From contig QZKS01000098.1 in assembly GCA_003599865.1 (NCBI GenBank), positions 1 through 64,000 on the forward strand: a DNA stretch of 64,000 bases. Direction: 5' to 3'. The DNA comes from Desulfobacteraceae bacterium (lineage in GTDB: Bacteria; Desulfobacterota; Desulfobacteria; Desulfobacterales; SURF-7). The notes below the pieces were generated by a model. The model made no database searches. It was not told the origin of the DNA and was given only the letters and a program-made list of their open reading frames with translations. Below, piece by piece: positions 5,517 through 27,887 of the stretch (the stretch's first letter is position 1; every line of letters starts with the position of its first letter). Made by a program: the position numbers and the translations under genes.

Positions 5517-7397
5517 ATGTGCGGAATTGCAGTCATTCTGACAGATAAAAACACCCATTGCCCGGCATCCGATCTTGTTAAAATGAGGGACAGGATAGAA
5601 CACCGGGGACCGGATGACAGAGGCATGGTTTTGTTTGATCACAACACATGCCCAATGGAAGAAGGATGTTCCGATGAGAAAAAATGGGCCCTGGGTCTTG
5701 CTCATCGGCGGCTTTCCATTATCGATCTTTCCCTGGCCGGTCACCAGCCGATGTCCTTTCAGGATCGATACTGGATTGTGTATAATGGAGAGGTATACAA
5801 TTATATTGAGCTCCGCAGCCGCCTGCTAAATCTCGGTCATGTTTTTTCCTCATCAACCGATACGGAAGTCATCCTGGCTTCCTACGCGGAGTGGGGAACG
5901 GAATGTTTTTCCCTGTTCCGCGGAATGTGGGGGATGGTTATCTGGGATGCGGCTCAGAAAAAACTGGTTCTATCCCGGGACCGCATGGGGATAAAACCCC
6001 TTTACATATGGAAAAAGCCAGGGATGATCGCGATTGGTTCAGAGATCAAACAGTTTCTTCATATAAGGGGCTTTACCGCAGTGTGTAATCCGGATGCTGC
6101 AAGTGAATACCTGAATACCGGTTATGAAGACCCGGATATCACCTTTTTTTCAGACGTTCATCCGTTACCGGCAGGGAAATTCATGACCATTGATGTTGAC
6201 ACACTGAAACAATCCCAATCCATGCCTTTCTGGTATCCGGAACGTGTAAAACCGGTAATCTCCGATTTTCAGGAAGCAGGAGACCTGTTTTATCAAAAAC
6301 TGAATGAATCGATTCAAATCCACCTGAGAAGTGATGTCCCTGTGGGTTGCGCGCTCAGCGGTGGTTTGGATTCAAGCTCCATTGCGATGATCATAAATCA
6401 GCATATGGACAAACCTTTTTTTACTTTCACATCAACATTTCCCAATGATCCTTGCGATGAGCGGGTATATGTTGATGAAGTATTACGGAAGATTAAGGCG
6501 AAACCCTATTTTACAACTCCGGATCCAAAAACTTTTATTGGAGATCTGGATCATTTCCTATGGATTCATGACGAGCCGGTCGGAAGCATTTCCGTCTATG
6601 CTTCTTTTTTGATTTCCAAGCTTGCCAGAGAGGCCGGGGTTCCGGTAACCCTGAACGGGCAGGGTGGTGACGAGGTTTTTTCAGGATACTGGCAGACCTA
6701 CTTCCTGCATCTATGGTCGTTGCTTCGGGATAAAAAGATTTTTCATTTTGTCCGTCATTTTGCAGGCGCAATGCTGGGAGATGGAAATCCGGATTTATGG
6801 AAACAGGTTCCAGCCATGGTCAGGCGGTTTCGTTCGAGAAGAAAAGCCCCCGGGAAAATTTTATTTGAAAGCAATCTTCCGGGTACCCGGAAAAATGTGC
6901 TGGAAAAAGTAATGAACCTGGACAGCCGGAGCCGCCGTCTTTATGAATTGCGAAACCTGTTTTTACCGAGGCTGTTAAAGTGGGACGACAGAAACTCAAT
7001 GGCATTTTCCGTGGAAGGCCGTTATCCGTTTCTGGACCATGAGCTGATTGAGCTATGTCTGTCCTTTTTACCGGAAACCCTTTATTCAAAAGGATGGACC
7101 AAACAACCGCTGCGATCCGGACTGAACAATATCCTTCCTGAAAAAATCATTCACCGGCGTTCCAAATTTGGTTTTGAAGTTCCGCAGGACAAATGGCTTC
7201 ACGGACCTCTCAAGCCGGTTATCGGAGATTGGCTGAAAAAAGACCGGCCGGTCTGGGATTATGTGAATCATACATCGATTCAAAAACTCGCGGATGAAAC
7301 CTGGGCGCTTCGCGGCAAGCAGGATGAGCCGGGTCAGGCTCTTTTCCGTGTTTTCGCTTTTGACCGCTGGCTGGAAATTTTTTCCATTCAAGCATGA
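5517..7397 (+). CDS. asnB: Asparagine synthase (glutamine-hydrolysing), paralogue 1
   Basis: A 626-residue class II glutamine amidotransferase joined to an ATP-PPi synthetase. The catalytic Cys follows the initiator Met (MCGIAVI). The N-terminal domain shows HRGPDDRG, RRLSIIDLS, NGEVYNYIELR and TDTEVIL. The synthetase domain has the PPi-binding loop ALSGGLDSSSIA near residue 285 and GQGGDEVFSGY. All residues expected for activity are visible. Reaction: glutamine amide nitrogen is transferred to an adenylated carboxylate. In glycan clusters such enzymes are generally taken to amidate sugar carboxylates (uronamides) or precursors rather than aspartate, though this cannot be decided here. It is one of three in this locus. 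Confidence 0.92.
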   Translation: MCGIAVILTDKNTHCPASDLVKMRDRIEHRGPDDRGMVLFDHNTCPMEEGCSDEKKWALGLAHRRLSIIDLSLAGHQPMSFQDRYWIVYNGEVYNYIELRSRLLNLGHVFSSSTDTEVILASYAEWGTECFSLFRGMWGMVIWDAAQKKLVLSRDRMGIKPLYIWKKPGMIAIGSEIKQFLHIRGFTAVCNPDAASEYLNTGYEDPDITFFSDVHPLPAGKFMTIDVDTLKQSQSMPFWYPERVKPVISDFQEAGDLFYQKLNESIQIHLRSDVPVGCALSGGLDSSSIAMIINQHMDKPFFTFTSTFPNDPCDERVYVDEVLRKIKAKPYFTTPDPKTFIGDLDHFLWIHDEPVGSISVYASFLISKLAREAGVPVTLNGQGGDEVFSGYWQTYFLHLWSLLRDKKIFHFVRHFAGAMLGDGNPDLWKQVPAMVRRFRSRRKAPGKILFESNLPGTRKNVLEKVMNLDSRSRRLYELRNLFLPRLLKWDDRNSMAFSVEGRYPFLDHELIELCLSFLPETLYSKGWTKQPLRSGLNNILPEKIIHRRSKFGFEVPQDKWLHGPLKPVIGDWLKKDRPVWDYVNHTSIQKLADETWALRGKQDEPGQALFRVFAFDRWLEIFSIQA

Positions 7398-9429: not shown

Positions 9430-10452
9430 ATGAAACTGTCAATCGTTATTCCGGTATTCAATGAAGAAGATGGTATTGAAAAACATCTTTATGAACTTGA
9501 AGAATATATGAATCAGTATGACGGATGCGATTCCTGGGAGATCATTACGGTGAATGATGGAAGCACGGATGCTACTCTCACCAAACTGCTGCAGATCGAG
9601 TATCGGAAAAAGTGGCTGAAAGTTGTCGACCTGGTTACAAATTTCGGAAGAGGAAAAGCTTTGCGAAAAGGAATTGAGAATGCGACAGGTGACATCATCA
9701 TTTCCCTGGATGCGGATTTGAGCTATGCACCCTACCATATTGAGCGCCTGGTTGACAAACTGGTCAAAAATAATGCGGATATCGTACTGGCTTCCGCTTA
9801 CGGGAAAGGCGGAACGGTCAAAAATGTGCCGTTCAAGCGCTTATGGATCAGCCGGGTCGGGAATAAGGTTTTGTCCTATATGTTTGGAGAGAACCTTTCG
9901 GTTCTAACCTGTATTGTCCGGGCTTACCGGAACGAATTCATCAAAAAGGTTGATCTGCACTCCAATGACAAGGATATTCATCTGGAAATTTTGTATAAGG
10001 CGAAAATCCTGGGTGCAAAAATTCTCGAAGTGCCCGCAGATTTGAGGTGGAGCGATGAAAAGGTTTCCGAGTTGGAGAAACCGGTAAAACGCCGTTCAAC
10101 AATGAAATTCAGAAAGACCACATCTTCTCATTTTTTCTTTGCATTGATGAACAAACCCGGTTTTGTGTTTCTGATGCCCGGGTTTTGTTTATTGACAGTT
10201 GCCGCGGTTGTTTTCCTGATTACCGCATCCGCCGTACTATCCCAGCTTATGGAAGGCATATCGCTCTATCATGCCCTGCGCAATTCCATGCTGACGGCCA
10301 CCCCTTCATGGCTGACATTCGCACTGTCTTTCATTCTGGCCTTCCAGTTTTTTTCTCTTGGATTTTTAACAAACCAGAACAAGAAGAACCATGAAGAATT
10401 ATATAAAACGATCAATAAAATCTTCAGAAATTCAAAAACAGGTGCGAAGTAA
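9430..10452 (+). CDS. Glycosyltransferase family 2, DPM1/GtrB-like with two membrane segments
   Basis: 340 residues. The GT-A domain occupies residues 1-230: LSIVIPVFNEEDGIEKHL at the start, EIITVNDGSTDATL, the metal-binding D-x-D in ISLDADLSYAP, and a later polyprenol-phosphate-transferase-like acceptor region. Two strongly hydrophobic segments follow (about residues 245-268 and 285-310), as in GtrB and dolichol-phosphate mannosyltransferase relatives that load a sugar onto polyprenyl phosphate. That product would suit the GT-C enzymes encoded further along. A good AAAGG ribosome site precedes the ATG. An asparagine-synthase gene starts 11 bases downstream. Confidence 0.87.
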   Translation: MKLSIVIPVFNEEDGIEKHLYELEEYMNQYDGCDSWEIITVNDGSTDATLTKLLQIEYRKKWLKVVDLVTNFGRGKALRKGIENATGDIIISLDADLSYAPYHIERLVDKLVKNNADIVLASAYGKGGTVKNVPFKRLWISRVGNKVLSYMFGENLSVLTCIVRAYRNEFIKKVDLHSNDKDIHLEILYKAKILGAKILEVPADLRWSDEKVSELEKPVKRRSTMKFRKTTSSHFFFALMNKPGFVFLMPGFCLLTVAAVVFLITASAVLSQLMEGISLYHALRNSMLTATPSWLTFALSFILAFQFFSLGFLTNQNKKNHEELYKTINKIFRNSKTGAK

Positions 10453-10463: not shown

Positions 10464-12320
10464 ATGTGCGGTATTGCAGGCATCATCGGTGACCTGTCCG
10501 GTTGCGGAATCACCCGGACAATGATTGACATGATGAAGCATCGCGGTCCGGATGCCGATGGATACTTTTGTAACAATGGGATTGAAATGGGTTTTTGCCG
10601 CCTGTCCATCAATGATCTTTCCAAATCAGCGAACCAGCCGTTTCAAGACAAAGAACGGAATATTGCCGTTTGCGTGAACGGGGAAATATACAATTTTGCG
10701 GAACTGAAAAAAGGACTTTTGGCAAGACAGTATCTGTTTCAATCCTATTCCGACTCCGAAGTGGTACTGCACGGATATCTGGAATATGGAATAGACTTTA
10801 TTCGGCAATTGAATGGAATGTTTGCAATCGCCGTCTGGGATGGCAGGACAAAAGAATTATTCCTTGTCAGAGACCGGCTTGGAATCAAACCTCTTTACTA
10901 TGCGGCAATCCGTCAGTCCGTATTTTTTGCTTCTGAAATAAAAGCGATCATGCAGAGCAGGAAATTGGAATTTTCCCTGGATTACCAGTCTTTCTCAGAA
11001 TATATGGCATTTGAGAACATGTTTTCGAACCGGACGATGAATGAACATGTCAGGATTGTCGAACCCGGAGAAGTTGTCAGGATTACTGCCGCGGGTGTAA
11101 AGCTTCACAGATATCACTACTGGGAACCTGATTTTGCTCCGGATGAAGCTATACAAGGTTCTGCTATTTATCGTCGATATATTGAGATACTGGAATCATC
11201 CGTCAGAAGACACCTCATCAGTGATGTTCCAATCGGTTTTTATCTGAGTTCCGGTATTGACTCCTCATCGGTGGTGCATACATCCAAACAAATTACCGGG
11301 AACCGTTTAAAAACCTATACCGGATGTTTTTCAGGAGTTGCATTTTATGATGAATCGATTGAAGCGGCAAAAGTTGCGGAAGAATTCGAGTGCTCCAATC
11401 GAAGGATTGAGATCCGGCCGCAGGATTTTATCAATCATATCGAAGATGTCCTATGGCATATGGATGAACCGCGCGTCGGAATGGGGTCATTCTCCCAATA
11501 TATGGTGGCAAGAACAGCTTCGGAGGAAGTCAAGGTTATCCTGACCGGACATGGAGGGGATGAATTTTTTGCCGGATATCCTGTATTCAAGGCAATATTC
11601 GGAAAACATGACCTGTTTGGTCTTATCAGTCACACAACTCCCCGCGAGATGATGTTTGTATTGTATTTCAATTTTTATAAATGGTTTCGAAAAGAAGCCG
11701 GATATTTTCTGCCGAATATTTTTTCCATAAAACAGATTCAAAATCTTATGGTTCCTGAATTTCATTCCGAACTAAAGGGAAGTGCGGATATTTTCAAGGA
11801 ATTGAAAACGCTGAAAGAGAAGTCGGAAAGCCCATATGAGCAACTGGTTCTGACCTATCTTACACTATACCTGCCAAGCCTTTTCATTGTCGAAGACAAA
11901 ATCAGCATGGCCTTTTCCCTTGAGTCCCGGACTCCTCTTTGTGACAATGAAATGCTTGATTTTGCCTTATCCATACCACTTGAACATAAGCTTAAGGGTT
12001 TTGAGTTGAAACACATACCCAAAACGGCAATGAGGGGGAGACTTCCCGGGACGTTATATGCATTGCCAAAAAGAGGGTTTCCAACTCCTTTCCGATTCTG
12101 GTTTAAAAAGGAATTAAAACACTATATCCGTGATTATATTCTCGACAACCGGCAGTACATCAGCATGTTTCAGATGGACAAGGTTGAGAACATGATTGAC
12201 CGCTTTCAACACTCAAGGCTGAACATACCCCTTGATGAAATTTCAGCTCATCAGATATGGATACTGTTTAATCTTATTGTATTTTTCAGGAATCAGAAAA
12301 AATACTATCAACGGCTCTAA
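10464..12320 (+). CDS. asnB: Asparagine synthase (glutamine-hydrolysing), paralogue 2, SSGIDS variant
   Basis: 618 residues: N-terminal Ntn amidotransferase (MCGIAGI with the catalytic Cys, HRGPDADGY, NGEIYNFAELK) and C-terminal synthetase. The PPi loop reads YLSSGIDSSSVV, so the usual SGG is SSG. This variant occurs in some glycan-linked subgroups and may mark a non-aspartate substrate. Also changed are SDSEVVL for TDTEVIL and SINDLS for SIIDLS. GHGGDEFFAGYP is intact. It is followed after two bases by the deacetylase-like gene, starting a run of genes with overlapping ends up to 18033. It is clearly diverged from the paralogues at 5517 and 49820. Confidence 0.9.
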   Translation: MCGIAGIIGDLSGCGITRTMIDMMKHRGPDADGYFCNNGIEMGFCRLSINDLSKSANQPFQDKERNIAVCVNGEIYNFAELKKGLLARQYLFQSYSDSEVVLHGYLEYGIDFIRQLNGMFAIAVWDGRTKELFLVRDRLGIKPLYYAAIRQSVFFASEIKAIMQSRKLEFSLDYQSFSEYMAFENMFSNRTMNEHVRIVEPGEVVRITAAGVKLHRYHYWEPDFAPDEAIQGSAIYRRYIEILESSVRRHLISDVPIGFYLSSGIDSSSVVHTSKQITGNRLKTYTGCFSGVAFYDESIEAAKVAEEFECSNRRIEIRPQDFINHIEDVLWHMDEPRVGMGSFSQYMVARTASEEVKVILTGHGGDEFFAGYPVFKAIFGKHDLFGLISHTTPREMMFVLYFNFYKWFRKEAGYFLPNIFSIKQIQNLMVPEFHSELKGSADIFKELKTLKEKSESPYEQLVLTYLTLYLPSLFIVEDKISMAFSLESRTPLCDNEMLDFALSIPLEHKLKGFELKHIPKTAMRGRLPGTLYALPKRGFPTPFRFWFKKELKHYIRDYILDNRQYISMFQMDKVENMIDRFQHSRLNIPLDEISAHQIWILFNLIVFFRNQKKYYQRL

Positions 12321-12322
12321 AC

Positions 12323-13693
12323 GTGCAGAAAAAAATCAGAATTGTATCAACCGATATCGAACCATGGATGATCTATATCCTGGGACAATTTGCGTCTGCA
12401 AACAGACTGGAAACAGAGTATTTCCTCTGCACGTACCGGGACTGTATCGTAGATCAGGCTGAAGATGATCATCTGATCGAATATTCAGAAAAAAAACAAT
12501 ACAAAAGCAGCCTTTTCATACCACGGAAAGAAAGATTCAGATCAAATGATTTTTATTGGCTGAACAAAGATCTGCCTGTTTTTTCCGATACCATCACCAC
12601 AGTAGACGGGAATATCGAATGTGACCTTCTATACAATGCCTTTGTCCACTTGAGCCGTCTTGAAGAATGGATGAGCGGGCAGAGGGGTAAGTCAATCCGG
12701 TCATACGCGATCAGGCATCCCAGGAAGAACCGCAGGCTCTGGAAAATTCCTTTGGTAAACCTGTTGTTCAATGAGTTGGAACAGAAAATACGGAAATCAC
12801 ATCCTGATGTTGAGTTCGGAAAAAGAGAAAAGCCCGTCATCGAATTTTCCCACGATGTGGATTATCTTTGGAAATCAAAACAATTAATCTTTAAACAATC
12901 CGTTCTCAATGTTTTAAAAATTTTTAAACTGCTATCCGGGTCACATCCTGAAAAAACATCACAGGAATTTCAAAAAGCGATCCGGTTTATCACCCAAAAG
13001 TCAACTTACTGGTGTTTTGATGAATGGGCCGCCCTGGAAACACCGTTTGCTCTGAGTGTAGTTTATTATATTTATGCAAAGGTTCGACAAAAGAGAAAAC
13101 AGACCTTGATGCAATGGCTGATCGACCCCCAGTACAATATTAAGACACATGTGAGGTTGCAGCAGCAATGTGCCGAACTGATCTCATCAGGGGGAGGAAT
13201 CGGTTTGCACGGAAGCGTTCTGTCGGCAACAGATGAAGCATTGTTTGCTCAGGAAAAACAGCTGCTGGAGAATTCTCTGGATCGGGTCATTACAAAGACC
13301 CGGCAACACTGGTTATGTTATTGTGAAAGCAAAACACCCTATATTCATGATTCATCGCAGATATGGGAGGACTCAACACTCGGATTTAACGATATTTCAG
13401 GTTTCCGTTCCGGAATCGCCTCGCGATACAACCCCTATGACCACCTTGCCCAAAAGCCGTTTTCATTTACCGAGATTCCGTTTGTCATCATGGATTCTCA
13501 CTTATACGATTCCCATACAGGTTCGGCCGGATTGAATTTCGAATGGTTTTTACAGTCGATGCGCAATATTAAACTGTTTGAAATTTCGGTTGGATGGCAC
13601 CAAAGAGTCATACATCCGGATTATGGTTGGGAAGCATCTTATGTTCAACTGATCAGGGATTATCAAAACAGGCTTAGCCATGAATCTCTATAA
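12323..13693 (+). CDS. Polysaccharide-deacetylase-like protein
   Basis: 456 residues from a GTG start two bases after the asnB stop. The N-terminal ~170 residues form a mixed domain (CDLLYNAFVHLSRLEEW) seen in front of divergent NodB-fold enzymes. The catalytic part starts at IEFSHDVDYLWKSKQ near residue 175, where HDVD replaces the usual TFDDG metal motif. Later GGGIGLHGSV and TEIPFVIMDSHLY fit the second and last strands of the barrel. The probable role is removal of an acyl group from, or other processing of, a glycan precursor; activity is inferred. The gene's last 14 bases overlap the next gene. It shares its layout with the broken gene at 2561-3229. Confidence 0.72.
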   Translation: MQKKIRIVSTDIEPWMIYILGQFASANRLETEYFLCTYRDCIVDQAEDDHLIEYSEKKQYKSSLFIPRKERFRSNDFYWLNKDLPVFSDTITTVDGNIECDLLYNAFVHLSRLEEWMSGQRGKSIRSYAIRHPRKNRRLWKIPLVNLLFNELEQKIRKSHPDVEFGKREKPVIEFSHDVDYLWKSKQLIFKQSVLNVLKIFKLLSGSHPEKTSQEFQKAIRFITQKSTYWCFDEWAALETPFALSVVYYIYAKVRQKRKQTLMQWLIDPQYNIKTHVRLQQQCAELISSGGGIGLHGSVLSATDEALFAQEKQLLENSLDRVITKTRQHWLCYCESKTPYIHDSSQIWEDSTLGFNDISGFRSGIASRYNPYDHLAQKPFSFTEIPFVIMDSHLYDSHTGSAGLNFEWFLQSMRNIKLFEISVGWHQRVIHPDYGWEASYVQLIRDYQNRLSHESL

Positions 13694-15284
13694 GGAAATC
13701 CTGGAATCCAATCTGCCGCGCCTTCTGTCATTATATAACCAGGACCGTTCTTCTGCAACCTATGGCTATGGAGACCGCCTTTACTGGGGCTGGAAAATTT
13801 CCGATTTTCCCAATGGTACCATGCAGGGAGGAGTGCATGCCCTGTCCATTGCTCTCAAACTCGATCTGATTGAAAATAAAAAATTTATGCTCTCTCTTAT
13901 TGACAGTGCGATTCGGGCGATCCGGGACATCAGATCAAACAATGGTTCGCTTTCAGAGGCATATCCCCAGGAGAATTCTTTTTGTGTAACGGCTGTTGCA
14001 GCGTTTGACACCCTTTCCGCTATTGATCACCTGAAACCGTATCTGGCATTCTCTCAGGTGAATGAGTACCTTGAGATTGTCCGGCCGTTAATATTGTTTA
14101 TCTGTAAGCATATTGAAAGCCACGCCATTATTTCCAATCATATCGCAACGGCGGCCGCAGCCTGCGCTGTATGGGAAAAACTGTCAGGAGAACAGTTGGA
14201 CAGGACCCATGCTCTGTTGGGGATCATATATCATCATCAGTCCGGAGAAGGATGGTATCGGGAATATGAAGGAGCAGATCCGGGCTATCAAACCCTTGCG
14301 ACCTACTATCTTTTCGCTGCATATGAAATAGTAAAGGATGAGAAGCTGCTGTCTTCGCTTGAAAAGGCAGGACGATTCCTGGAATATTTTATTCATCCGG
14401 ATGGAACCCTGGGCGGCTTGTATGGTTCGCGAAACACTGAGGTATACTATCCGGCCGGTGTTGTCGGGATGATGAAGTATTCCGACAGGTATAAGAGAAT
14501 CGCCGGATTACTCCATCATGGACTTCAGGAGCGCAATCATGTTTTACCGCAGGATATCGATATCGGGAATTTCATTCCCCTGATAAACGCCTATGCCGTA
14601 GCCGCCTTGCATTTTCACACAAGACCAGATGACGACGCTAAACCGGAAACACAGGCAAGGCATAAAACGGTATTCGCAAAAACGTTTCAGGACGCCGGGA
14701 TTTACATTCATTCCACGCCTTTCTATTATGCCATCGTAAACTTTAAAAAAGGAGGAACCATAAAAGTTTACGATAAAGCAACGGATACCCTGGATATAGA
14801 GGATGGAGGACTGTTCGGCCAACTGGAAACCAGACAGTCATTTTCGACCCAGCAATTTGATTCAAACCGGAAATTTACCGATCATACCATTGAAACGCCA
14901 TTTTATCTTGTAAATGAGCGGCTGCCAGGCGCTTTATCAACGATCGTGATCAGAATACTTGGATTCACTTTTTTCCGGGTGATCGCGATAGGGAACCTTT
15001 TTAAAAAAGCCATTGTCAGGGTGCTGATGACCGGTAAAAAACCGGCAGGCGGCAAAGCGGTTCGCAGGTTTTTTTTTTCAGACAATGAAATTGCAGTCAA
15101 AGAAACAGTCCTGAAACCAAAATCTTGTAAAAGTGTTGGGCATACTGGTAAATGCAAAGCCATACACATGGCTTCAAGCGGCTATTTTCTCGCCCAGGAT
15201 ATTCAGATAATGCCAACCTCCAAATATGTCCGTTTTTTACAGGAAGATGATTCCCAGATTAAAACCAGCCATAAATGCAGCTGA
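13680..15284 (+). CDS. Unknown protein, probable helical (alpha/alpha) toroid
   Basis: 534 residues, function not recognised. The first ~320 residues show repeating amphipathic helix pairs with short Gly/Trp-rich loops (YGYGDRLYWGWKISDFP, GEGWYREYEGADPGYQTL, HPDGTLGGLYGSRNT). This pattern resembles alpha/alpha-barrel enzymes such as heparinase-type lyases, glycoside hydrolases and C5-epimerases. The remaining ~200 residues look beta-rich (GGTIKVYDKATDTLDIEDGG) and have a hydrophobic stretch (TIVIRILGFTFFRVIAIG). No signal peptide is visible, so a cytoplasmic or membrane-surface site is likely. The start overlaps the previous gene by 14 bases and the end overlaps the next by 38-59. A lyase/epimerase-like glycan enzyme is a guess from fold and context. 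Confidence 0.7.
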   Translation: MNLYKEILESNLPRLLSLYNQDRSSATYGYGDRLYWGWKISDFPNGTMQGGVHALSIALKLDLIENKKFMLSLIDSAIRAIRDIRSNNGSLSEAYPQENSFCVTAVAAFDTLSAIDHLKPYLAFSQVNEYLEIVRPLILFICKHIESHAIISNHIATAAAACAVWEKLSGEQLDRTHALLGIIYHHQSGEGWYREYEGADPGYQTLATYYLFAAYEIVKDEKLLSSLEKAGRFLEYFIHPDGTLGGLYGSRNTEVYYPAGVVGMMKYSDRYKRIAGLLHHGLQERNHVLPQDIDIGNFIPLINAYAVAALHFHTRPDDDAKPETQARHKTVFAKTFQDAGIYIHSTPFYYAIVNFKKGGTIKVYDKATDTLDIEDGGLFGQLETRQSFSTQQFDSNRKFTDHTIETPFYLVNERLPGALSTIVIRILGFTFFRVIAIGNLFKKAIVRVLMTGKKPAGGKAVRRFFFSDNEIAVKETVLKPKSCKSVGHTGKCKAIHMASSGYFLAQDIQIMPTSKYVRFLQEDDSQIKTSHKCS

Positions 15285-16431
15285 ATTACTGGCCGCACTG
15301 CGTCCAGATGGCCTGGATGAAATCCGCCTGTTTGAAGAGGACTTCGCACAGCTTATGGGGCAAAAGCACGCGGTTGCTTTTCCATATGGCCGAACCGGGC
15401 TGATATATCTGCTGACCGCCCTTGGATTAAAAGGAAAAGAGATAATCTGCCCTGCCTATACCTGTGTGGTTGTTCCTCATGCAATCGTCTACAGCGGCAG
15501 CACCCCGGTATTTATCGATTGCGCACCGGACGGGTTTAATATGGATCTTGATCTGGCCGGGAAGTCTATCACCGGCAATACAGGCGCGATTGTTGCAACT
15601 TCCATATTCGGCTATCCTGTGGATCTTGACAGAATCAAGGCAATACAGGAAAAGCATCCCCAGATAAAAATCATTCAGGACTGCGCTCACAGTTTTGCCG
15701 CAGAGTGGAAGGGGAGGCCGGTTCAGAAACAGGGAGAGGCGGCCATTTTCGGATTAAACATCAGCAAATTGCTGACTTCCATTTTCGGCGGTATGGTAAC
15801 GACCGATTCAGATAAACTGTATCATGATCTGAAACAATTGCGTGACCGGCATCTGACGGTTTCGGATTGGAAAAAAACACTGCGCCGCCTGTTGTACTTT
15901 CTCTCCCTGTATCCGACTTTCTGGGAACCACTGTATGGCCTGGTGAACCGCTTGGAACGATCCGGAATACTGAATCATTTCACCCAATATTATGATGATG
16001 CAAAAATAGACATGCCCGATGACTACCGGCTTCAAATGTCGTCACTTGAAGCAAAGATCGGCAGGTGCAATATCCATAAATACCGGAAGATTCTTGCTGC
16101 CAGAAGGGTTGCGGCAAAAATATATTTTACCGGACTGCCCAATCTGCCTGAATTTCAGCTTCCGCCGGAGATAGACGGTGCGACATACTCCCACTTTGTC
16201 GTTCAGGTCCCGGACCGAAAACAATGGATGGAATACGGTTTGAAAAAGGGGATTCAACTTGGACAACTGATAGAGTACAATATCCCGGAAATGGAATCTT
16301 ATGGCAGCCATCCACGTGGATCTTATCCTTTGTCTGCAAAGTATTCCCGGTCAACCATCAATCTTCCGGTTTATGGCGGGGAAGAAGTCGCAAAATCCGT
16401 TGTCAGGATCGTAAAAAAACATATTCAATGA
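15226..16431 (+). CDS. DegT/DnrJ/EryC1/StrS-type aminotransferase, paralogue 1
   Basis: 401 residues from this ATG, or 394 from the ATG at 15247 (MIPRLKPAIN), which matches the usual start of the family. PLP-dependent fold type I. Recognisable are FPYGRTGLIYLL (substrate and cofactor pocket), ICPAYTCVVVPHAI, QDCAHSF with the Asp that contacts the PLP ring, and the Schiff-base lysine K181 in LNISKLLTSIFGG. These enzymes usually aminate a 3- or 4-keto nucleotide sugar. The SKLLTSIFGG form departs from the standard SxxKxxxxGEGG, placing it in a divergent subgroup. It overlaps the unknown helical protein upstream and the GNAT gene downstream (ATGA). Confidence 0.87.
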   Translation: MSVFYRKMIPRLKPAINAAELLAALRPDGLDEIRLFEEDFAQLMGQKHAVAFPYGRTGLIYLLTALGLKGKEIICPAYTCVVVPHAIVYSGSTPVFIDCAPDGFNMDLDLAGKSITGNTGAIVATSIFGYPVDLDRIKAIQEKHPQIKIIQDCAHSFAAEWKGRPVQKQGEAAIFGLNISKLLTSIFGGMVTTDSDKLYHDLKQLRDRHLTVSDWKKTLRRLLYFLSLYPTFWEPLYGLVNRLERSGILNHFTQYYDDAKIDMPDDYRLQMSSLEAKIGRCNIHKYRKILAARRVAAKIYFTGLPNLPEFQLPPEIDGATYSHFVVQVPDRKQWMEYGLKKGIQLGQLIEYNIPEMESYGSHPRGSYPLSAKYSRSTINLPVYGGEEVAKSVVRIVKKHIQ

Positions 16432-17012
16432 AGGATTCGAATCCACCATCAAGCTATTTATCGGCGCAGAAAAATCATATCAATGAAATTGTCGATATCC
16501 ATCTGGAAAGTCTGGCAGATGATTTTTTGCCTCAACTGGGGAAAACGGTTCTGACCACTTATTACAATGCTTTTATTGTTCATAATCCGATCATCATTGT
16601 CAAAATGGAAAACAAGGTGGTTGGATTTGCCGCGCTGGGAATTCATCCAATTGATATCCGGTCGTTATTTTTACGGCATTACAAACAGATCATATGCACG
16701 TTATTACGGAAACCGTTTTTATGGGGGCAGGCTGTCTGGCTTGCGGTTCCCAGAAAACATGCAACGATATACCCTGAAATTCAATTTATTGCGGTTCAAA
16801 AAAGGTATAGAGGTTTGTCACTGGGCTCAAACCTGATTGCCCATACCCAACGCTGCTTGTCTGAGAGAAATCAAACCTATCTTCAAGTGAAAACCCATGA
16901 CACCAATACACTCACAAATCATTTTTATCAGAAGAACGGATTTGTGGTAACGGGAAAGGAAAAAAGGTGCAACAAAACGTTTCACATTTATAGTAAGAAG
17001 ATAGATGAATGA
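16428..17012 (+). CDS. GNAT-family N-acetyltransferase
   Basis: 194 residues from the ATG that overlaps the upstream aminotransferase stop (ATGA at 16428-16431). The acetyl-CoA binding motif A is IAVQKRYRGLSLGSNLIAHT, and the C-terminal NHFYQKNGFVVTGKE is the usual final strand pair. Acetyl-CoA-dependent N-acylation of an amino sugar just made by the coupled aminotransferase is the obvious role, by context. A longer open frame extends upstream to 16224 but lies wholly inside the aminotransferase and is rejected. The 3' end overlaps the next gene by 8 bases. Confidence 0.85.
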   Translation: MKDSNPPSSYLSAQKNHINEIVDIHLESLADDFLPQLGKTVLTTYYNAFIVHNPIIIVKMENKVVGFAALGIHPIDIRSLFLRHYKQIICTLLRKPFLWGQAVWLAVPRKHATIYPEIQFIAVQKRYRGLSLGSNLIAHTQRCLSERNQTYLQVKTHDTNTLTNHFYQKNGFVVTGKEKRCNKTFHIYSKKIDE

Positions 17013-18033
17013 GAAAAAATCATTTTTTCAGAACATGAACAGAATACCTTCAAGTGTTCGTAAAATATTCCTTTTGCTATGCAAATTTCTGTTTGCCATA
17101 ATCATTCTATTGATTTTACAGAGATATGACATTCTTCAAATTGATTTGCTTGAAGATTTGTTCAGAAGACCGCTATTATTATCAGGGCTTGTTTTATACA
17201 TCGGGAGTACGTTTTTCCTCTGTGCCTTGCGGTGGCAGATGCTGATGAAAATTCAAAATATTGAAGTACTATTTTCCCATGTTTTTTCCGCTGTTTATGT
17301 ATCTGCATTTGTAAGCCTGTTTTTGCCTGGTGCCATTAGCGGAGATGTAGTGAGGACAGTAATCGGCTTGAAATTCAACAACAACCAGAAATTGAATATC
17401 GCTCTTTCCGTTATCATGGATCGGTTGATTGGAATGATGGGTCTGGTCACATTGGGATTTTTTGCAGGGGTTTTCATCTGTTTCACAAAAAAAGAAAGCA
17501 GCATTATTTTGATAAACATCTGTATGATTTTTTTCTTCATCATTATCCTTTTTTTAATGATTTCATTTTTCTCAAAGCGCATTCTGGAAATCATGAACAT
17601 AAAGAATTGGAATGAAAAAAAAAGCATCTACCAATTGATCCATAAGGCAGTCAATGCATTGGCAGTTTACGGGAGATCTCCCAAAAGCATGATGCACTGC
17701 TGGGGTATTTCAGTCATTGTGCACGCACAGCATTTAACACTATTGCTTGCCTGCGGAATCATTATCGGTATGAGCGGTGTCGAGTCATCTCTTTATGCAT
17801 TTGCTGGTGTTGTCGCATTTATCATTAACTTTCTTCCGGTTACACCTGGGGGCCTTGGCGTTGGTGAAATCACTTTTTCTCATGTTATTGAAGTTGTTTC
17901 ATCTCATACAAATGAATTTCAGGCATATGGAAGCATGATGCTTGCCTATCGAAGCGTTCTTGCCCTTTCTTTGGTCCCGGCCCTTCTTTTTTTATTTCAA
18001 ACATATCGATTGTTCAGAAAAATGGAAAAATAG
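17005..18033 (+). CDS. Lysylphosphatidylglycerol-synthase-type membrane protein (flippase-like domain)
   Basis: 342 residues with ~8 hydrophobic segments and no soluble catalytic domain. Two family signatures are clear: LFLPGAISGDVVRTVIG near residue 105 and INFLPVTPGGLGVGEITF near residue 275. The family (UPF0104 / MprF membrane domain) includes flippase-like proteins found in many glycan and lipid-modification clusters. Movement of a lipid-linked intermediate, or regulation of it, is possible but unproven. The start overlaps the GNAT gene by 8 bases. It is notably AT-rich. The module that starts with asnB 2 seems to end here (79-base gap follows). Confidence 0.87.
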   Translation: MNEKKSFFQNMNRIPSSVRKIFLLLCKFLFAIIILLILQRYDILQIDLLEDLFRRPLLLSGLVLYIGSTFFLCALRWQMLMKIQNIEVLFSHVFSAVYVSAFVSLFLPGAISGDVVRTVIGLKFNNNQKLNIALSVIMDRLIGMMGLVTLGFFAGVFICFTKKESSIILINICMIFFFIIILFLMISFFSKRILEIMNIKNWNEKKSIYQLIHKAVNALAVYGRSPKSMMHCWGISVIVHAQHLTLLLACGIIIGMSGVESSLYAFAGVVAFIINFLPVTPGGLGVGEITFSHVIEVVSSHTNEFQAYGSMMLAYRSVLALSLVPALLFLFQTYRLFRKMEK

Positions 18034-18112: not shown

Positions 18113-18880
18113 TTGATTCGCAACTATCTGCCATACTCCCTTTATTCAAAACTTTGGGGTGATCGCAGAAAATACAGTAAGAAAACGTTTCATCATGCTG
18201 ACCTGGATTGGAAAAAATGGATCAATATCGGCTATACCCATTTTTATCAGCACATGCAGCAGGAAGGAATTGGAGATTGGGTCTGCCGATTGGGGTATCC
18301 CATTCTCTCTGATATGGATTTTTCGGATAAAAGGGTTCTTGAAATCGGTCCAGGCAGTATCCGTCATATAAAATATATTACAAAAGCGCCCGAAGTCTAT
18401 TTCACCATTGATATTGAAAAGCATTGTCTGAAGATGACCAGACAGATACTCACCGCAGCACAAATTCGAAATGAAGCAATATTAATGGATAATCGGCATG
18501 ATTGTTTTTTACCGTTACAGGATGAGTCCATTGACATCATTGTTTCGTTCTATTCATTAGAGCATCTTGACCCGCTGCCGTATTATCTTCGGGAGATAAA
18601 ACGAGTATTAAAAAAGGGTGGCAGCTTTATCGGAGCTATTCCATGTGAAGGCGGGTTTGTATGGGGTATAGGGCGGTATATTACAACCCGAAGGCATGCG
18701 ATGAAAGAGTATCATATAAACTATGACAAGATCATCTGCTGGGAACACCCGAATTTTGCCGACTTTATCATAAAAGAGCTGGATACCTGTTTTACTCGCT
18801 GTTCAGTTGCAAGGAAACCGTTTCCGGAACTGCCAATGGATCTGAACCTGGTAATGACATTTAACTATTCGAAAACTTGA
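18113..18880 (+). CDS. Class I SAM-dependent methyltransferase
   Basis: 255 residues. Glycine loop VLEIGPGSIRHIKYI near residue 75, acidic end FTIDIEKHCLKM, then IIVSFYSLEHLDPLPYYLRE and the RVLKKGGSFIGAIPCEGG segment, all typical of Methyltransf_11. The only start in frame near the gap is the TTG at 18113, preceded by purine-rich GAGAGAGCAG. The next in-frame Met would remove the first ~40 residues. The target is unknown, probably a sugar or lipid-linked glycan. It stands between the membrane protein and the first radical SAM gene. Confidence 0.82.
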   Translation: MIRNYLPYSLYSKLWGDRRKYSKKTFHHADLDWKKWINIGYTHFYQHMQQEGIGDWVCRLGYPILSDMDFSDKRVLEIGPGSIRHIKYITKAPEVYFTIDIEKHCLKMTRQILTAAQIRNEAILMDNRHDCFLPLQDESIDIIVSFYSLEHLDPLPYYLREIKRVLKKGGSFIGAIPCEGGFVWGIGRYITTRRHAMKEYHINYDKIICWEHPNFADFIIKELDTCFTRCSVARKPFPELPMDLNLVMTFNYSKT

Positions 18881-20993: not shown

Positions 20994-22550
20994 ATGACTA
21001 ATCCGGTCAACAAAATTGATATTTTATTGATTTATCCACCTTTGGGAATCTTTGATGGCATTCTTCGCGATATACCATTGAGTCTGATTTATGCTGCTGC
21101 CGATTCCGTTAAAAAAGGCTATTCCGTAAAAATACTGGACTTGCGCCTGTACCCAAACAGTTGGCAACAGGAAATTGACCATTGTATCCGTGAGGGGTGT
21201 TCATTGATCGGAATCTCTGTAATGACCGGAAACCCAATCCGTTCTTCCCTCGCCATATCAAAATACATAAAAAAGCAGACAAGGATTCCAATCGTATGGG
21301 GTGGACCCCACCCGACGATTCTGCCTGAACAGACACTGGAAAATGAGAATATTGATTTCATCATAAGAGATTGGGGATCTGTTTCATTATCGATGCTGAT
21401 ACAGTATGTTAAAGATGGAACTGGTGAAATCGCAGACATACTGGGCCTGGGGTACAAGGTTGATGGAAAAGTTGTTTTAAATGAAACCCAATGCTGGTTT
21501 GAGATGCTTGATTTCCATGATTTGCCGTACCACCTTGTTGAAATAACATCCCGTAACTACAACCGGTTAAATAATGGGGAGGTCATTTTTCCGATTTTTA
21601 CCGCTGTGGGGTGTCCGTACAAATGCACATTCTGTATGTCTCCTGCTGTTTATAAGAAAATAAAGGGCAAAAAATGGATTCCATATCCGATAGACGCAGT
21701 GATTGAGCATATTGATTTTGTTAAGAAGAAATATGATTTCCAACGACTGCAGATCTATGATGACGATTCCTTTGTGGATATTCCAAGGATGCGGCTTTTT
21801 TTCGAGAAGTATATCGAAATGGGATTTCACAAGACCCTGAAAATCGACTTTCGAGGAGTTCGCATTAATGAACTATACCATATGGATACGGATTTCTTTT
21901 CCCTTATGGAAAAAGCAAATGTCGAACTGATGGCGATTGGTGTCGAATCAGGATCGGCAAGGATTCTTTCTGAAATGAACAAGGGGATAACCGTCGACCA
22001 GATACTTCATGTCAACAGACAATTGGCAAAATTCCCCACGATCAAACCTCATTATAACTTTTTTTGTGGTGTACCGGGTGAAACATATGAGAGTCTTCTT
22101 GAGACAAAGGACTTGATACTCACATTGGTAAAAGACAATCCGCATTGTTATCTTGGATTTGGCGGAGACTGGAAACCATTACCGGGTTCCATTATGACGG
22201 AGAGGGCGGTTAAAGAATATCATCTAAAACTTCCGGACAGACTGGAAGATTGGGCTGAAATCGACAATTTTGATTCAATTAAGATTTCTCATCCATGGTA
22301 TACCCCAAAGATGGATTCCATGATCAAGTTATTGCAGGTTGCAGGCCATTTATTAGATAAAAAAGTTGCCGAATACAGTGGAGATCTTGGACCGGTGCTT
22401 GGCAAAATGGTCAACATGCTGTCTGTATTATATCAACCACTATTGCGATTACGGCTGAAGTACAATATTACCTTTTTTTTAATCGAGTACGATGCCAAGA
22501 CTTATTTTTTCAGGTATCTGACAAAACTATTACGCATCTTCAAGGGATGA
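20994..22550 (+). CDS. B12-binding-type radical SAM protein
   Basis: 518 residues. The N-terminal ~150 residues have the cobalamin-binding Rossmann layout (LLIYPPLGIFDGILRDIPLS, then IGISVMTGNP and IVWGGPHPTILPE). The classic DxHxxG base-off signature is not obvious. The radical SAM core follows with C207-x3-C211-x2-C214 in GCPYKCTFC, then LQIYDDDSFVD, IGVESGS and FFCGVPGET. This resembles the BchE/P-methylase type, which does methylation or oxidative chemistry at unactivated carbons. In a glycan locus it could methylate a sugar or lipid carbon; this is inference. It begins 35 bases after the zinc-ribbon methyltransferase. Confidence 0.9.
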   Translation: MTNPVNKIDILLIYPPLGIFDGILRDIPLSLIYAAADSVKKGYSVKILDLRLYPNSWQQEIDHCIREGCSLIGISVMTGNPIRSSLAISKYIKKQTRIPIVWGGPHPTILPEQTLENENIDFIIRDWGSVSLSMLIQYVKDGTGEIADILGLGYKVDGKVVLNETQCWFEMLDFHDLPYHLVEITSRNYNRLNNGEVIFPIFTAVGCPYKCTFCMSPAVYKKIKGKKWIPYPIDAVIEHIDFVKKKYDFQRLQIYDDDSFVDIPRMRLFFEKYIEMGFHKTLKIDFRGVRINELYHMDTDFFSLMEKANVELMAIGVESGSARILSEMNKGITVDQILHVNRQLAKFPTIKPHYNFFCGVPGETYESLLETKDLILTLVKDNPHCYLGFGGDWKPLPGSIMTERAVKEYHLKLPDRLEDWAEIDNFDSIKISHPWYTPKMDSMIKLLQVAGHLLDKKVAEYSGDLGPVLGKMVNMLSVLYQPLLRLRLKYNITFFLIEYDAKTYFFRYLTKLLRIFKG

Positions 22551-24134: not shown

Positions 24135-25328
24135 ATGAAAGTACCTTTTGCCTTACCGGAATGCGGTGAAGCCGAAACAAATGAAGTTGTTGAGGTTATC
24201 AAAAGCGGATGGTTAACCACAGCCTCCCGGGCGTTTGAGTTTGAAAACAGGTTCAAGGAGTTTACCGGCGCAAAATATTGTCTGGCAGTAAACTCCTGTA
24301 CGGCAGCTTTGCATCTTGGACTGGAGGCTCTGGGGATTAAAAGGGGTGACAAAGTGATTGTTCCGGTTCACACTTTTACAGCTACGGCAGAAGTATTGCG
24401 ATATCTTGATGCAGACCCGGTATTCGTGGATTGTGATAAAGACACCTTTTGTATATCTATTCCTGAGTTGCAACAAAAAATAGCTGAAGATAACCTGAAA
24501 AGGCAAATCAAAGCAGTGATACCCGTTCATTTCGGAGGGCACTCTTGTGATATGGATCATGTTATTGATATTTCCAGAAAAGCGGCATTGTCCGTTATCG
24601 AAGATGCTGCGCATGCTTTCCCTGCCTTTTACGTAAGTTCAAATGAAAACGGGGAGGAGAAAAGAAGGATCATCGGCAAAATCGGAGATGTCACCTGCTT
24701 CAGTTTTTATGCAAACAAGACAATTACCACAGCTGAGGGCGGAATGCTGGCAACCGATAATGAGGCCATTGCAAGACGTGCAAAGGTCATGAGGCTGCAT
24801 GGCATTGACAGGGATGTATGGGATCGTTTCGGCAGTTTGAAATCGGACTGGATATATGATGTGGTAGCACCGGGTTTTAAATATAATATGCCGGATCTGT
24901 CTGCGGCGCTCGGCATACATCAGCTGCGGAAAGCAAATCTGTTCCGGGAAAAAAGAGAGAAGATCGCCCAGCGCTATTATGATGAATTGTCCGGCATTGA
25001 CGGCCTAACATTGCCGAAGATCAAGTGCTCAATGAAAGACCATGCATGGCATATATTTGCCATCCTGATCGATTCCCGGTATTCAAAACACAGTCTGAAC
25101 AGGGATGACTTCATTTTAAAGATGAAGGAAAAAAATATCGGAACCAGCGTGCATTATATCCCATTGCACCGGTTAACGTATTATCGTAACCGATACAATC
25201 TTCAGCCGGAAATGTTTCCCAATTCGGAATGGATATTTCAGAGGTGTGTGAGTTTGCCGATCTATTCAGCCATGACGGAAGATCAGATAGAATATGTCAT
25301 ATGTTCGATTCAGAAAATTTTAAATTAA
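24135..25328 (+). CDS. DegT/DnrJ/EryC1/StrS-type aminotransferase, paralogue 2 (PglE-like)
   Basis: 397 residues, PLP-dependent. Landmarks are SGWLTTASRAFEFE near residue 24, AVNSCTAALHLGL, PVHTFTATAEVL, EDAAHAF, and the Schiff-base lysine K195 in CFSFYANKTITTAEGG, a standard form of the motif. This subgroup aminates UDP-4-keto-6-deoxy sugars. The very next genes are a PglC-like phosphoglycosyl transferase and a PglF/CapD-like 4,6-dehydratase. Together they suggest synthesis and loading of a 4-amino-4,6-dideoxy-N-acetyl-hexosamine as the first sugar. It is distinct from the divergent paralogue at 15226. Confidence 0.92.
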   Translation: MKVPFALPECGEAETNEVVEVIKSGWLTTASRAFEFENRFKEFTGAKYCLAVNSCTAALHLGLEALGIKRGDKVIVPVHTFTATAEVLRYLDADPVFVDCDKDTFCISIPELQQKIAEDNLKRQIKAVIPVHFGGHSCDMDHVIDISRKAALSVIEDAAHAFPAFYVSSNENGEEKRRIIGKIGDVTCFSFYANKTITTAEGGMLATDNEAIARRAKVMRLHGIDRDVWDRFGSLKSDWIYDVVAPGFKYNMPDLSAALGIHQLRKANLFREKREKIAQRYYDELSGIDGLTLPKIKCSMKDHAWHIFAILIDSRYSKHSLNRDDFILKMKEKNIGTSVHYIPLHRLTYYRNRYNLQPEMFPNSEWIFQRCVSLPIYSAMTEDQIEYVICSIQKILN

Positions 25329-25364
25329 CCCAGGAAAGATGATTGACATTTGCCGTCCGGCATC

Positions 25365-25973
25365 ATGACCGATGACACTTTAAAAAGAATTTTCGATATT
25401 TTCATATCCCTCGGCGGAATTGTTTTTCTGCCGTTATGTATGGTTGCCGCGTTTCTGGTTGCCGCGGACGGCGGACCTGTTTTTTTCCGCCAAAAACGGG
25501 TAGGTCTGCATGGCAGACAGTTTGATATTTTCAAGTTCCGTTCCATGACAATCAATGCGGAACAAAAAGGGACGATGGTTACCGCCGGGAACGACAGCCG
25601 CATTACTCCAATAGGCCGGTTATTGCGAAGATATAAAATTGATGAACTGCCACAGCTTCTCAATGTGCTGATGGGTCATATGAGCATTGTCGGTCCCCGA
25701 CCTGAGGTCCCTGTGTATGTTGAGAAGTGGTCTGATCAGGATAAAAAGGTGATTCTTTCGGTGAAACCGGGGGTTACCGATTTCGCTTCTCTGCTTTTTA
25801 TAAATGAAGAAGCCCTTCTGTCCCGATACCCGGATCATGAGAGTGCATATATCAATATCGTCATGCCCCAAAAAATTTCCTGTTACCGGCAATATGTCAA
25901 TACAAGGAATTTTTTTGTGGACCTGAAAATTGTTATCGCAACCATTGTAGAGATTTTTCGGAAAAAAGGATAA
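25365..25973 (+). CDS. Initiating sugar-phosphate transferase (PglC-like monotopic PGT)
   Basis: About 202 residues from the ATG at 25365. A TTG at 25350, better spaced from AGGAAAG, is also possible. Signature segments are LKRIFDIFISLGGIVFLP (re-entrant membrane helix), FFRQKRVGLHGRQFDIFKFR, IDELPQLLNVLMG with the catalytic Asp-Glu pair, and MSIVGPRPE. The length equals the minimal PglC core without the WbaP extra membrane domain. It transfers a sugar-1-phosphate from a UDP-sugar to undecaprenyl phosphate, thus starting the glycan. A nine-codon frame (25339-25368) behind the AGGAAAG site ends across the ATG (ATGA) and may be a leader coupling translation. Confidence 0.92.
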   Translation: MTDDTLKRIFDIFISLGGIVFLPLCMVAAFLVAADGGPVFFRQKRVGLHGRQFDIFKFRSMTINAEQKGTMVTAGNDSRITPIGRLLRRYKIDELPQLLNVLMGHMSIVGPRPEVPVYVEKWSDQDKKVILSVKPGVTDFASLLFINEEALLSRYPDHESAYINIVMPQKISCYRQYVNTRNFFVDLKIVIATIVEIFRKKG

Positions 25974-25982
25974 GGAAGCAAA

Positions 25983-27887
25983 ATGAATTTTTTTTATATC
26001 CGCAGAAATTTGATTTTGTTGATTTTTATTGATCTCGTACTTCTGGCCCTGTCATATTTTTTTGCCTACCTGACACGATTTGAAGGAAACATCAGCGTTC
26101 AAGAAGTGGAGAATATTAAACTGTCCATAGCGCCCATCATTATCTGTAAAATTTTTGTGTTTTACTATTTTGACTTATACAAAGGGATGTGGCGCTATAC
26201 CGGAATTGTTGACCTGATTAACATTATCAAGGCAATTTTGACCAGCTCTCTTGTTATCGTATCGTTTCTGACCATGTATACCGGTTTTCTTGGCTTTTCC
26301 CGTTCCGTCTTTTTAATTGACGCAGTTTTTGCCTTGGTGCTTATATCGGGGGTAAGGCTTTTGATACGACTTATCCTGTCACCTTCCAGTCAGAACATTC
26401 ATCTTTTACCCAATACGAAAAGTAATGGATACAAAAAATTATTGATCATCGGAGCAGGTGACGCAGGTGAAAAGGTTGTCCGGGAAATCATTGACAATCC
26501 GAGAATGAAATACGAGGTCGTTGGTTTTCTTGATGATGATAAAAGAAAAAAAGGAAGGCATATACATGGTAAAAAAGTATATGGGGCTGTGGACGAGATA
26601 ATCAATGTGGTTCAAAACAATGAGATCGATGAAATCCTGATTGCCGTGCCTTCCGCTTCCGGCGATAGCATGAGAAGACTGGTTGAATTGTGCAGTTCCA
26701 GTAAAATTCCTTTCAAGACACTCCCGGGAATGGGTGAATTGATTGATGGACGTGTCAGTATCAAAACGGTCCGGGATATTTCCTATAAAGATTTATTAAA
26801 AAGGTCCCCGGTTCGATTGGAGAACAATAAAATTGCCGGTTTTTTAAAAGATAAATGCATTATGATAACAGGTGCCGGAGGGTCTATAGGATCTGAATTA
26901 TGCCGGCAGATCTGCAAGTATGAGCCTGCCCTGATTATACTGATCGATTCAAGCGAGAGCAATCTTTACGCCATCCAGATGGAGCTGAAACATGAAAAAA
27001 CATATCTGAAGTATCGTGCCGTGCTGGGGAGAGTACAGGACTCTTTACTGATGAACGACATCATGGCCAAATACAAACCCAATGTGATATTCCATGCTGC
27101 TGCCTATAAACATGTGCCCCTGATTGAAAGAAATCCATGGGAGGCAGTTTATTCAAATATCATCGGATCCAATGTCCTGGTCAAAGCCGCCATACATCAT
27201 AAGGTGGAAAGATTCGTCCTGGTTTCATCCGATAAGGCCGTGAGACCGACAAATGTAATGGGCACATCGAAAAGAGTCATCGAGAAAATAATCCAATCCA
27301 AGAACAATGACATCACCAGATTTATTGCCGTACGGTTCGGGAATGTTATCGGGTCCTCCGGATCGGTTGTGCCGCTGTTTTTGAACCAGATCAAAAAAGG
27401 CGGCCCCATCACAGTCACCCATCCGGAAATTACGCGGTTTTTCATGACCATAGAAGAAGCTGCGCAACTCATTCTTCAAGCGTTCACGATGGGGACAGGC
27501 GGTGAAATTTTTATTCTTGAAATGGGGATACCCGTCAAGATTGTGGATATGGCAAAAGATTTGATCAATTTTTCCGGGAAAAAACTCGAAGACATAAAAA
27601 TCGTATTCAGCGGATTGCGTCCAGGGGAAAAATTGTACGAGGAGTTGATCACGGAAGGAGAGGGGATCGTTAAGACAAATCATGAGAAAATAATGGTTCT
27701 CAGAAAAAACGGAGATATGAATTCACGTAACGATGATAATTTTCCGGAGGATACGCCTGCTTTTTTTGAAGAAAAATTTTCAAAATTAATTTCATTTGCT
27801 GAAAAGCATGATTCCATCAACATCAAACGAACGTTAAAAGAAATCGTCCCGGAGTACAGCATACAGGATGATGAGGCTGTGCTTTAG
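25983..27887 (+). CDS. Nucleotide-sugar 4,6-dehydratase, CapD/PglF/WbpM-like
   Basis: 634 residues. Four N-terminal membrane segments (to about residue 125) anchor it to the inner membrane. A first Rossmann domain follows (LLIIGAGDAGEKVV near residue 152), then the catalytic SDR-type domain (ITGAGGSIGSELCRQI near residue 295, HAAAYKHVPLIE, SSDKAVRPTNVMGTSKR, RFGNVIGSSGSVVPLF). The MGTSK form, with Met in place of the SDR Tyr, is typical of this membrane dehydratase family. It converts UDP-GlcNAc to the UDP-4-keto-6-deoxy sugar that a PglE-like aminotransferase uses. It is nine bases after the PGT gene. Length and motifs are complete. Confidence 0.94.
   Translation: MNFFYIRRNLILLIFIDLVLLALSYFFAYLTRFEGNISVQEVENIKLSIAPIIICKIFVFYYFDLYKGMWRYTGIVDLINIIKAILTSSLVIVSFLTMYTGFLGFSRSVFLIDAVFALVLISGVRLLIRLILSPSSQNIHLLPNTKSNGYKKLLIIGAGDAGEKVVREIIDNPRMKYEVVGFLDDDKRKKGRHIHGKKVYGAVDEIINVVQNNEIDEILIAVPSASGDSMRRLVELCSSSKIPFKTLPGMGELIDGRVSIKTVRDISYKDLLKRSPVRLENNKIAGFLKDKCIMITGAGGSIGSELCRQICKYEPALIILIDSSESNLYAIQMELKHEKTYLKYRAVLGRVQDSLLMNDIMAKYKPNVIFHAAAYKHVPLIERNPWEAVYSNIIGSNVLVKAAIHHKVERFVLVSSDKAVRPTNVMGTSKRVIEKIIQSKNNDITRFIAVRFGNVIGSSGSVVPLFLNQIKKGGPITVTHPEITRFFMTIEEAAQLILQAFTMGTGGEIFILEMGIPVKIVDMAKDLINFSGKKLEDIKIVFSGLRPGEKLYEELITEGEGIVKTNHEKIMVLRKNGDMNSRNDDNFPEDTPAFFEEKFSKLISFAEKHDSINIKRTLKEIVPEYSIQDDEAVL

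Follow-up and report, generated by a model that had tools for sequence, protein, structure and literature searches.

A Recurring Three-Gene Core around a Divergent Protein of Lyase/Epimerase Fold in a Desulfobacteraceae Surface-Polysaccharide Locus

Enzymes of the DegT, formyl/acyltransferase, deacetylase and family 2 glycosyltransferase (GT2) classes take part in the Arn scheme for polyprenyl-linked 4-amino-4-deoxy-arabinose. The other described systems closest to the locus reported here are given as excerpts of their PubMed Central (PMC) papers present them. In Porphyromonas gingivalis the AsnB-type protein WbpS makes a uronamide, in a pathway to which VimE belongs as the putative deacetylase (PMC7468200). 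Polysaccharide lyases of family PL33 have N238, Y291 and H444 as key catalytic residues, and their fold and catalytic apparatus are common to the dermatan sulfate epimerase DS-epi1 (PMC11848413), whose likeness to bacterial lyases is described elsewhere (PMC8006597). Agl32, an archaeal glucuronyl C5-epimerase, is a toroid-fold enzyme whose substrate is reported to be a lipid-linked glycan that has yet to be exported (PMC13308652).

We analysed a stretch of 64,000 nucleotides (the window) from the 5.0 Mb, 100-contig genome of a Desulfobacteraceae bacterium (contig QZKS01000098.1, positions 1 to 64,000 of the forward strand). The window carries an extensive locus for surface polysaccharide, comprising several glycosyltransferases, an ATP-binding cassette (ABC) exporter whose open reading frame (ORF) at 31191 bears a Wzt_C domain, and dTDP-rhamnose genes, these last read from translations. 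Within it, a deacetylase (12323), a protein that we call U (13680) and a DegT-family aminotransferase (15226) form a core that recurs in other genomes. We report the order of these genes, the fold relationship and conserved residues of U, the swapping of genes in the slots around the core, and the way in which U diverges in parallel with the deacetylase; the reactions, substrates and locations given for the cassette are all inferred. We put the chances at roughly even that the three genes are the core of a portable sugar-tailoring cassette in an ABC-transporter-type O-antigen/polysaccharide cluster, in which U acts on a uronic acid and the surrounding slots, which take an AsnB amidotransferase, an N-acyltransferase, a methyltransferase or a glycosyltransferase, are exchangeable.

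Recurrence of the core and exchange of its neighbours

The genes concerned are these:

9430–10452, forward: GT2 glycosyltransferase (PF00535) with two hydrophobic segments at its C-terminal end; glycosyltransferase slot, variable in content
10464–12320, forward: AsnB-type amidotransferase (PF00733/PF13537); conserved slot, occupied in the window by a non-orthologous gene
12323–13693, forward: DUF7033/VimE-like carbohydrate deacetylase (PF23019, 31.2 bits); conserved core, partner of U
13680–15284, forward: U, a new divergent family with a helical toroid and a beta domain (lyase/DS-epimerase-like fold, from an AlphaFold2 model and fold and profile matches); conserved core
15247–16431 (probable start; ORF opens at 15226), forward: DegT-family aminotransferase, matching the DegT/DnrJ/EryC1 profile PF01041 (178 bits against a cut-off of 19.8); conserved core
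16428–17012, forward: GNAT acyltransferase (PF13508/PF00583); variable N-acyltransferase slot
17005–18033, forward: LPG_synthase_TM (flippase-like) membrane protein (PF03706, 92.7 bits); accessory
18113–18880, forward: S-adenosylmethionine (SAM) methyltransferase (Methyltransf_11); recurring associate of the core

U is accompanied by proteins of the 12323 and 15226 families, with gene order unchanged, in other genera and, it appears, in other phyla as well. A scan of a genome collection returned five loci with relatives of U: L001 in a Desulfobacteraceae metagenome-assembled genome (MAG; U 60% identical), L002 in a Nitrospirae MAG (55%), L003 and L004 on contigs labelled Arcobacter (53%) and Sulfurospirillum (52%), and L005 in an Omnitrophota MAG (32%). 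Counting the window's own genome each time, a U-type protein is present in 6 of 194 relatives' genomes, 15 of 395 genomes of the phylum and 12 of 389 of the class; of these, G592 (L093) and G660 (L094) have close cassettes. G636 and L001, one contig as judged by its length (49430), were counted once. In the close group (the window, L001 to L004, L093 and L094), the DegT gene immediately follows U at all seven loci. The deacetylase lies upstream of U, adjoining it or one gene apart, at each of the six loci where this can be read (the L003 contig starts too near U), and AsnB lies upstream of the deacetylase at the same six. The core trio thus spans Desulfobacterota as well as a Nitrospirae MAG and contigs labelled Campylobacterota, although the labels of L003 and L004 are weaker evidence than the 84 kb contig of L002, since these two contigs are short and come from MAGs of a single isolate series. 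Ten pattern matches to U in viral contigs yielded no confirmed case, and the single plasmid match (24% identity) is in a record without annotation at that place. Among open-licence PMC papers, judged by title and the opening of the abstract, this gene arrangement is not described.

A sequence-only reading of the window had singled out positions 10464–18033 as a compact module of six coupled genes. All six ORFs are where it placed them, with the families AsnB, deacetylase-like, none, DegT, GNAT and LPG_synthase_TM, and they are as tightly packed as it said, with gaps of +2, −14, −59 (probably −38), −4 and −8. The smaller overlap between U and DegT is probable because the DegT orthologues of L001, L002 and L004 begin at, or within three residues of, the second ATG at 15247; the GNAT start at 16428 sits within a longer mechanical ORF. 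Close packing is common in this locus, however (14 of the 38 gaps in 3279–56235 are of two bases or less), and a run of five such gaps appears in ~10% of gap-order shuffles (probability near 0.10), too often for packing to prove a module. Nor is the left border sharp, as the upstream glycosyltransferase ends only 11 bases before AsnB. Hence it is recurrence across genomes that marks the module; the packing is real but nothing special. The check that this reading proposed, recurrence of U beside the 12323 and 15226 families elsewhere, has a positive outcome. As one conserved unit the six-gene set does not hold up: its AsnB is non-orthologous, the acyltransferase family varies, and the LPG-type protein is near U at only two of the seven close loci (the window and L093; L003 and L004 are short contigs). 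The borders drawn do enclose a recurring neighbourhood, but the core differs from the set drawn, and the methyltransferase at 18113, which was left out, is part of the neighbourhood.

The surface-sugar locus keeps its core pair of U and deacetylase while swapping amidation and acylation modules. The window AsnB, which has Cys2 and an SSGIDSS motif, is 29%–33% identical to its sister AsnBs, hardly above its identity to its own paralogues, whereas the AsnBs of the five sister cassettes are 55%–69% identical to one another; the position is therefore a conserved slot in which the window's gene has been replaced. Three AsnB-type genes occur in the window's locus (5517–7397, 10464–12320 and 49820–51781), with a mutual identity of only 27%–30%. 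After DegT, a slot readable at five loci because the L003 and L004 contigs end there, come a GNAT protein (the window), a formyltransferase (L002 and L093), a hexapeptide transferase (L094), or a methyltransferase followed by a 206-residue protein of no family (L001). As N-acyltransferase-type enzymes of three unrelated families occupy the slot at four of the five loci, the DegT product would be an amine that is then acylated. The NISK segment of DegT, whose lysine we take to bind the cofactor, is present in all seven aligned proteins. The 18113 methyltransferase has orthologues (43%–50% identical) in L001, L003, L093 and L094, of which those in L003 and L093 adjoin U on its upstream side. The same L001, L093 and L094, together with L002, have in common a sister GT2 of 287–288 residues (410–454 bits mutually), with no orthologue among the window glycosyltransferases compared; the window GT2 at 9430–10452 instead resembles those adjoining distant U genes (L041 and L029).

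At these distant loci (L005, L029 and L041) U is ~30%–32% identical to the window protein, with AsnB and GT2 genes no more than three genes away in all three, a CE4 deacetylase near U in two (L005 and L041) and a UDP-GlcNAc 2-epimerase in two (L005 and L029). At a further 19 loci, more distant again, the gene next to U on the same strand is, by local hidden Markov models (HMMs), an LPG_synthase_TM gene in seven cases, a GT2 gene in seven, and one or the other in 11; five of the adjoining LPG genes were confirmed by Pfam. One genome (G005) carries three different U-type proteins (L041, L042 and L043), each in another polysaccharide neighbourhood. A B12-binding radical SAM protein of the window (20994–22550) has its best relatives in the fetched loci near U genes (351 bits in L005, and 162 bits in L041, where the contig end is cut off); it possibly belongs to an extended neighbourhood.

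Fold, conserved residues and partner of U

The window U has no match in Pfam, NCBIfam or PDB sequences, and PF07940 (Hepar_II_III_C) matches neither U nor anything else in its genome. Searching the PDB with a 21-row U profile gave only insignificant matches (6lja, heparinase-like, E = 0.014; 6hzn, E = 0.24). Pfam families considered for the 21 members at E ≤ 1, weakly Pec_lyase (nine members, best 0.0019) and GH127 (four), led to no assignment. An AlphaFold2 model from six sequences (predicted local distance difference test score 75.6, predicted template modelling score 0.80) has a helical toroid at residues 3–313 and a beta domain at 332–521. The sequence-only description of an unknown helical protein thus fits the N-terminal part of U; the rest is a beta domain, and the whole has a lyase/epimerase fold. 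The best PDB matches of the model by Foldseek are PL33, PL17 and glycosaminoglycan lyases (best E = 7e-6; 23 matches with E ≤ 0.001). On VIA re-alignment it matches human DS-epi1 over 422 residues (Z = 18.8, root-mean-square deviation [rmsd] 5.2, model residues 1–516) and GAGase VII over 415 (Z = 18.5, rmsd 5.1, residues 1–534), in each case through both domains. A candidate membrane hairpin in the beta domain (408–462) was rejected, since the hydrophobic stretch of the window protein (1.95) is not prominent in most of nine other homologues; U has no obvious signal peptide.

Profile comparison points the same way. We aligned 24 U sequences, trimmed to the window's columns, from a set of 29 loci from which L020, L024 and L046 were left out, as were L039, L040 and L097, for want of a U or of more than a weak or incomplete match (by local HMM, L039 has no U and L097 matches weakly). 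Against 12 heparinase II/III ORFs of the same phylum, hhalign gave a probability of 94.4 and a score of 70.6 over 376 columns spanning both domains, compared with a maximum of 29.5 in 200 column shuffles of the U alignment. N153, E195, D200, Y203, S250 and R251 are invariant in all 24 homologues, and, by sequence alignment and not by structural superposition, N153-H154 and Y203 line up with the N-H pair and the tyrosine of the heparinases, respectively. By modelled fold and by two of the three aligned catalytic positions, U is a relative of the heparinases and DS-epimerases, and we treat it as a new divergent family of this fold and not as a member of the heparinase family.

The deacetylase, whose HDVD and GLH motifs are present in all six aligned proteins, diverges in step with U. 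Over 15 pairs from six loci, the identities of the two proteins correlate with r = 0.85 (0.88 without the window), in contrast to 0.14 for U and DegT and −0.31 for U and AsnB. Such a contrast points to U and the deacetylase travelling as a pair while the other slots reassort, and the two may share a substrate.

Weighing explanations of the cassette

In the tailoring cassette that we favour, the deacetylase would free the amino group of an N-acetylated sugar, DegT would add an amino group to a keto-sugar, and the acyltransferase of the slot would cap the amine with acetyl or formyl; AsnB would convert a uronic acid to the amide, and the methyltransferase would contribute a methyl group. U would work in the cytoplasm on a growing, probably lipid-linked glycan, at C5 of a uronic-acid residue, by epimerisation or, less likely, elimination, with Tyr203 as acid/base and Asn153 steadying the carboxylate. 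The predicted product is an N-acylated amino-sugar/uronamide residue. An amidated or acylated building block, as proposed from the sequence, is reasonable; its transfer across the membrane by this gene set is not borne out.

Several observations weigh against this account. The heparinase HxHxD segment falls in a gap of U, which has no counterpart to it and a KGG in the region (K357 of the KGG is lysine in 23 of 24 homologues and arginine in one); lacking the histidine motif, U may not catalyse lyase or epimerase chemistry. Its model comes from six sequences only, with low confidence in the conserved loops 21–47, 195–197 and 249–253, and most rows of the VIA list above rank 40, including most of those ranked above DS-epi1, match the toroid alone. 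An earlier control of 100 shuffles on 23 untrimmed rows had a mean of 18 and a maximum of 137, above the real score of 83.8, for a cause unexplained. The 15 identity pairs, drawn from six loci, are not independent, and U genes at greater distance have GT2 and LPG-type neighbours but not this deacetylase, so that the pair is not universal. Finally, UDP-sugar dehydrogenase and UDP-GlcNAc 2-epimerase have no match in the window, and both are elsewhere in the genome; the dehydrogenase matches (PF03721) are on contigs C35 and C39, with weak ones on C5 and C45 and none on C15.

A different pathway, Wbp/Vim-like or XrtA-like, would yield a linking sugar, amino-acylated or amidated, by which surface proteins are anchored, with U as an extra step. 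Excerpted text of PMC7468200 ties such genes to linking sugars, and exosortase matches exceed the cut-off in six of eight cassette genomes. VimE (NF053580) is the sole NCBIfam match of the four cassette deacetylases of the window, L001, L093 and L094, and the AsnB, CE4 and FemAB proteins beside U in L041 resemble TIGR03108, TIGR03006 and TIGR03019. These likenesses are far from the cut-offs, however: the VimE scores are 51.1 bits for the window and 60.2, 59.7 and 81.8 bits for the sisters against 440, the window AsnB scores 374.6 bits against 816.9 for TIGR03108, and the three L041 proteins are all below their cut-offs. No exosortase was found in genomes G465 and G771, and both of those in G000 are on other contigs. 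On balance, we consider such a pathway unlikely.

A pathway of the Arn kind would add a polyprenyl-linked amino sugar outside the inner membrane, with U editing the lipid-linked sugar. Its enzyme classes fit (DegT, formyltransferase, deacetylase, GT2 with C-terminal hydrophobic segments, and LPG-type), as does a PMT_2-type transferase at 22555, and so does the adjacency of U to a GT2 or LPG_synthase_TM gene at 11 of the 19 most distant loci. But the DegT protein reaches only 111.8 of the 631 bits set for ArnB, the sister GT2 is without hydrophobic segments in the four readable cassettes (L001, L002, L093 and L094), and AsnB has, to our knowledge, no place in the Arn scheme; we regard this explanation as quite improbable. 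That U is a non-catalytic, carbohydrate-binding or scaffolding lyase relative presenting the glycan to the deacetylase would fit both the missing histidine motif and the divergence of the two proteins in step, but it seems a poor prospect beside six residues invariant in 24 of 24 homologues, which is typical of an active site, and beside distant U genes without a deacetylase partner. The Bordetella wbm cap genes were not taken as a model, as the excerpt of PMC3849452 gives no biochemistry for wbmS.

The tailoring cassette, then, is the explanation we retain. In a bolder form that we rate very doubtful, U and the deacetylase would be the bacterial counterpart of the heparan/dermatan pair of N-deacetylase and DS-epi1-fold uronyl C5-epimerase, acting on a lipid-linked O-antigen precursor through a new active site (Tyr/Asn plus the Lys in the histidine's region), while exchange of the DegT, amidotransferase and acyltransferase modules around the pair would diversify the antigen.

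Other window genes and comparison with known systems

Elsewhere in the window, an IS200-like transposase (Y1_Tnp, 27.4 bits; 1991–2536) lies upstream of the first glycosyltransferase. At 24135–27887 a second DegT gene (PseC-like, 346.7 bits against 423.5) is lined up with a sugar-phosphate transferase-like gene and a CapD/PseB-like dehydratase, an arrangement that looks like an initiating diamino-sugar set. Outside the sugar genes are two tandem Hsp70-like proteins (57506–62099; the one at 57506 matches PF00012 and the one at 59328 is alike by reading). A QTMAN_N match of 197 bits (62149–63273), the N-terminal domain of tRNA-queuosine alpha-mannosyltransferase, occurs here in a bacterial genome.

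A family without a Pfam, NCBIfam or PDB sequence match, reaching across Desulfobacterota, Nitrospirae, Campylobacterota-labelled and Omnitrophota MAGs, can now be assigned a fold, a set of candidate active-site residues and, in the deacetylase, a constant partner. This suggests that the folds of uronic-acid lyases and epimerases serve in the intracellular building of surface sugars too, and not in degradation alone. U and the deacetylase make a small, testable two-enzyme system.

Compared with described systems, U resembles the heparinase II/III-type lyases and DS-epi1 (PL12, PL21 and PL33; 6hzn) in its toroid and beta domain over the full length and in its aligned Asn and Tyr. It differs from them in having no Pfam match, an identity of ~10%–12%, a near-invariant KGG in the region of the missing HxHxD, no obvious signal peptide and a biosynthetic locus. 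The window set has in common with the Wbp/Vim pathway of P. gingivalis an AsnB-type amidotransferase, a VimE-related deacetylase, a GNAT-type acyltransferase and a DegT protein, whereas it reaches no equivalog cut-off, contains no UDP-sugar dehydrogenase and includes U, for which the excerpted account of that pathway describes no counterpart. With the XrtA/PEP-CTERM genes (TIGR03108, TIGR03006 and TIGR03019) the cassettes have AsnB, deacetylase and acyltransferase in common, most strongly at L041, but their scores are sub-cut-off, DegT and U are additional, and the window has no exosortase. The Arn pathway has the same DegT, formyl/acyltransferase, deacetylase and GT2 classes as the cassette, which departs from it in having AsnB and U. 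Agl32, as excerpted, consists of the alpha-helical domain only, unlike U with its toroid and beta domain, and the likeness is one of description from which we draw no kinship; as a precedent, it makes it conceivable that a toroid enzyme such as U acts on a lipid-linked glycan before export.

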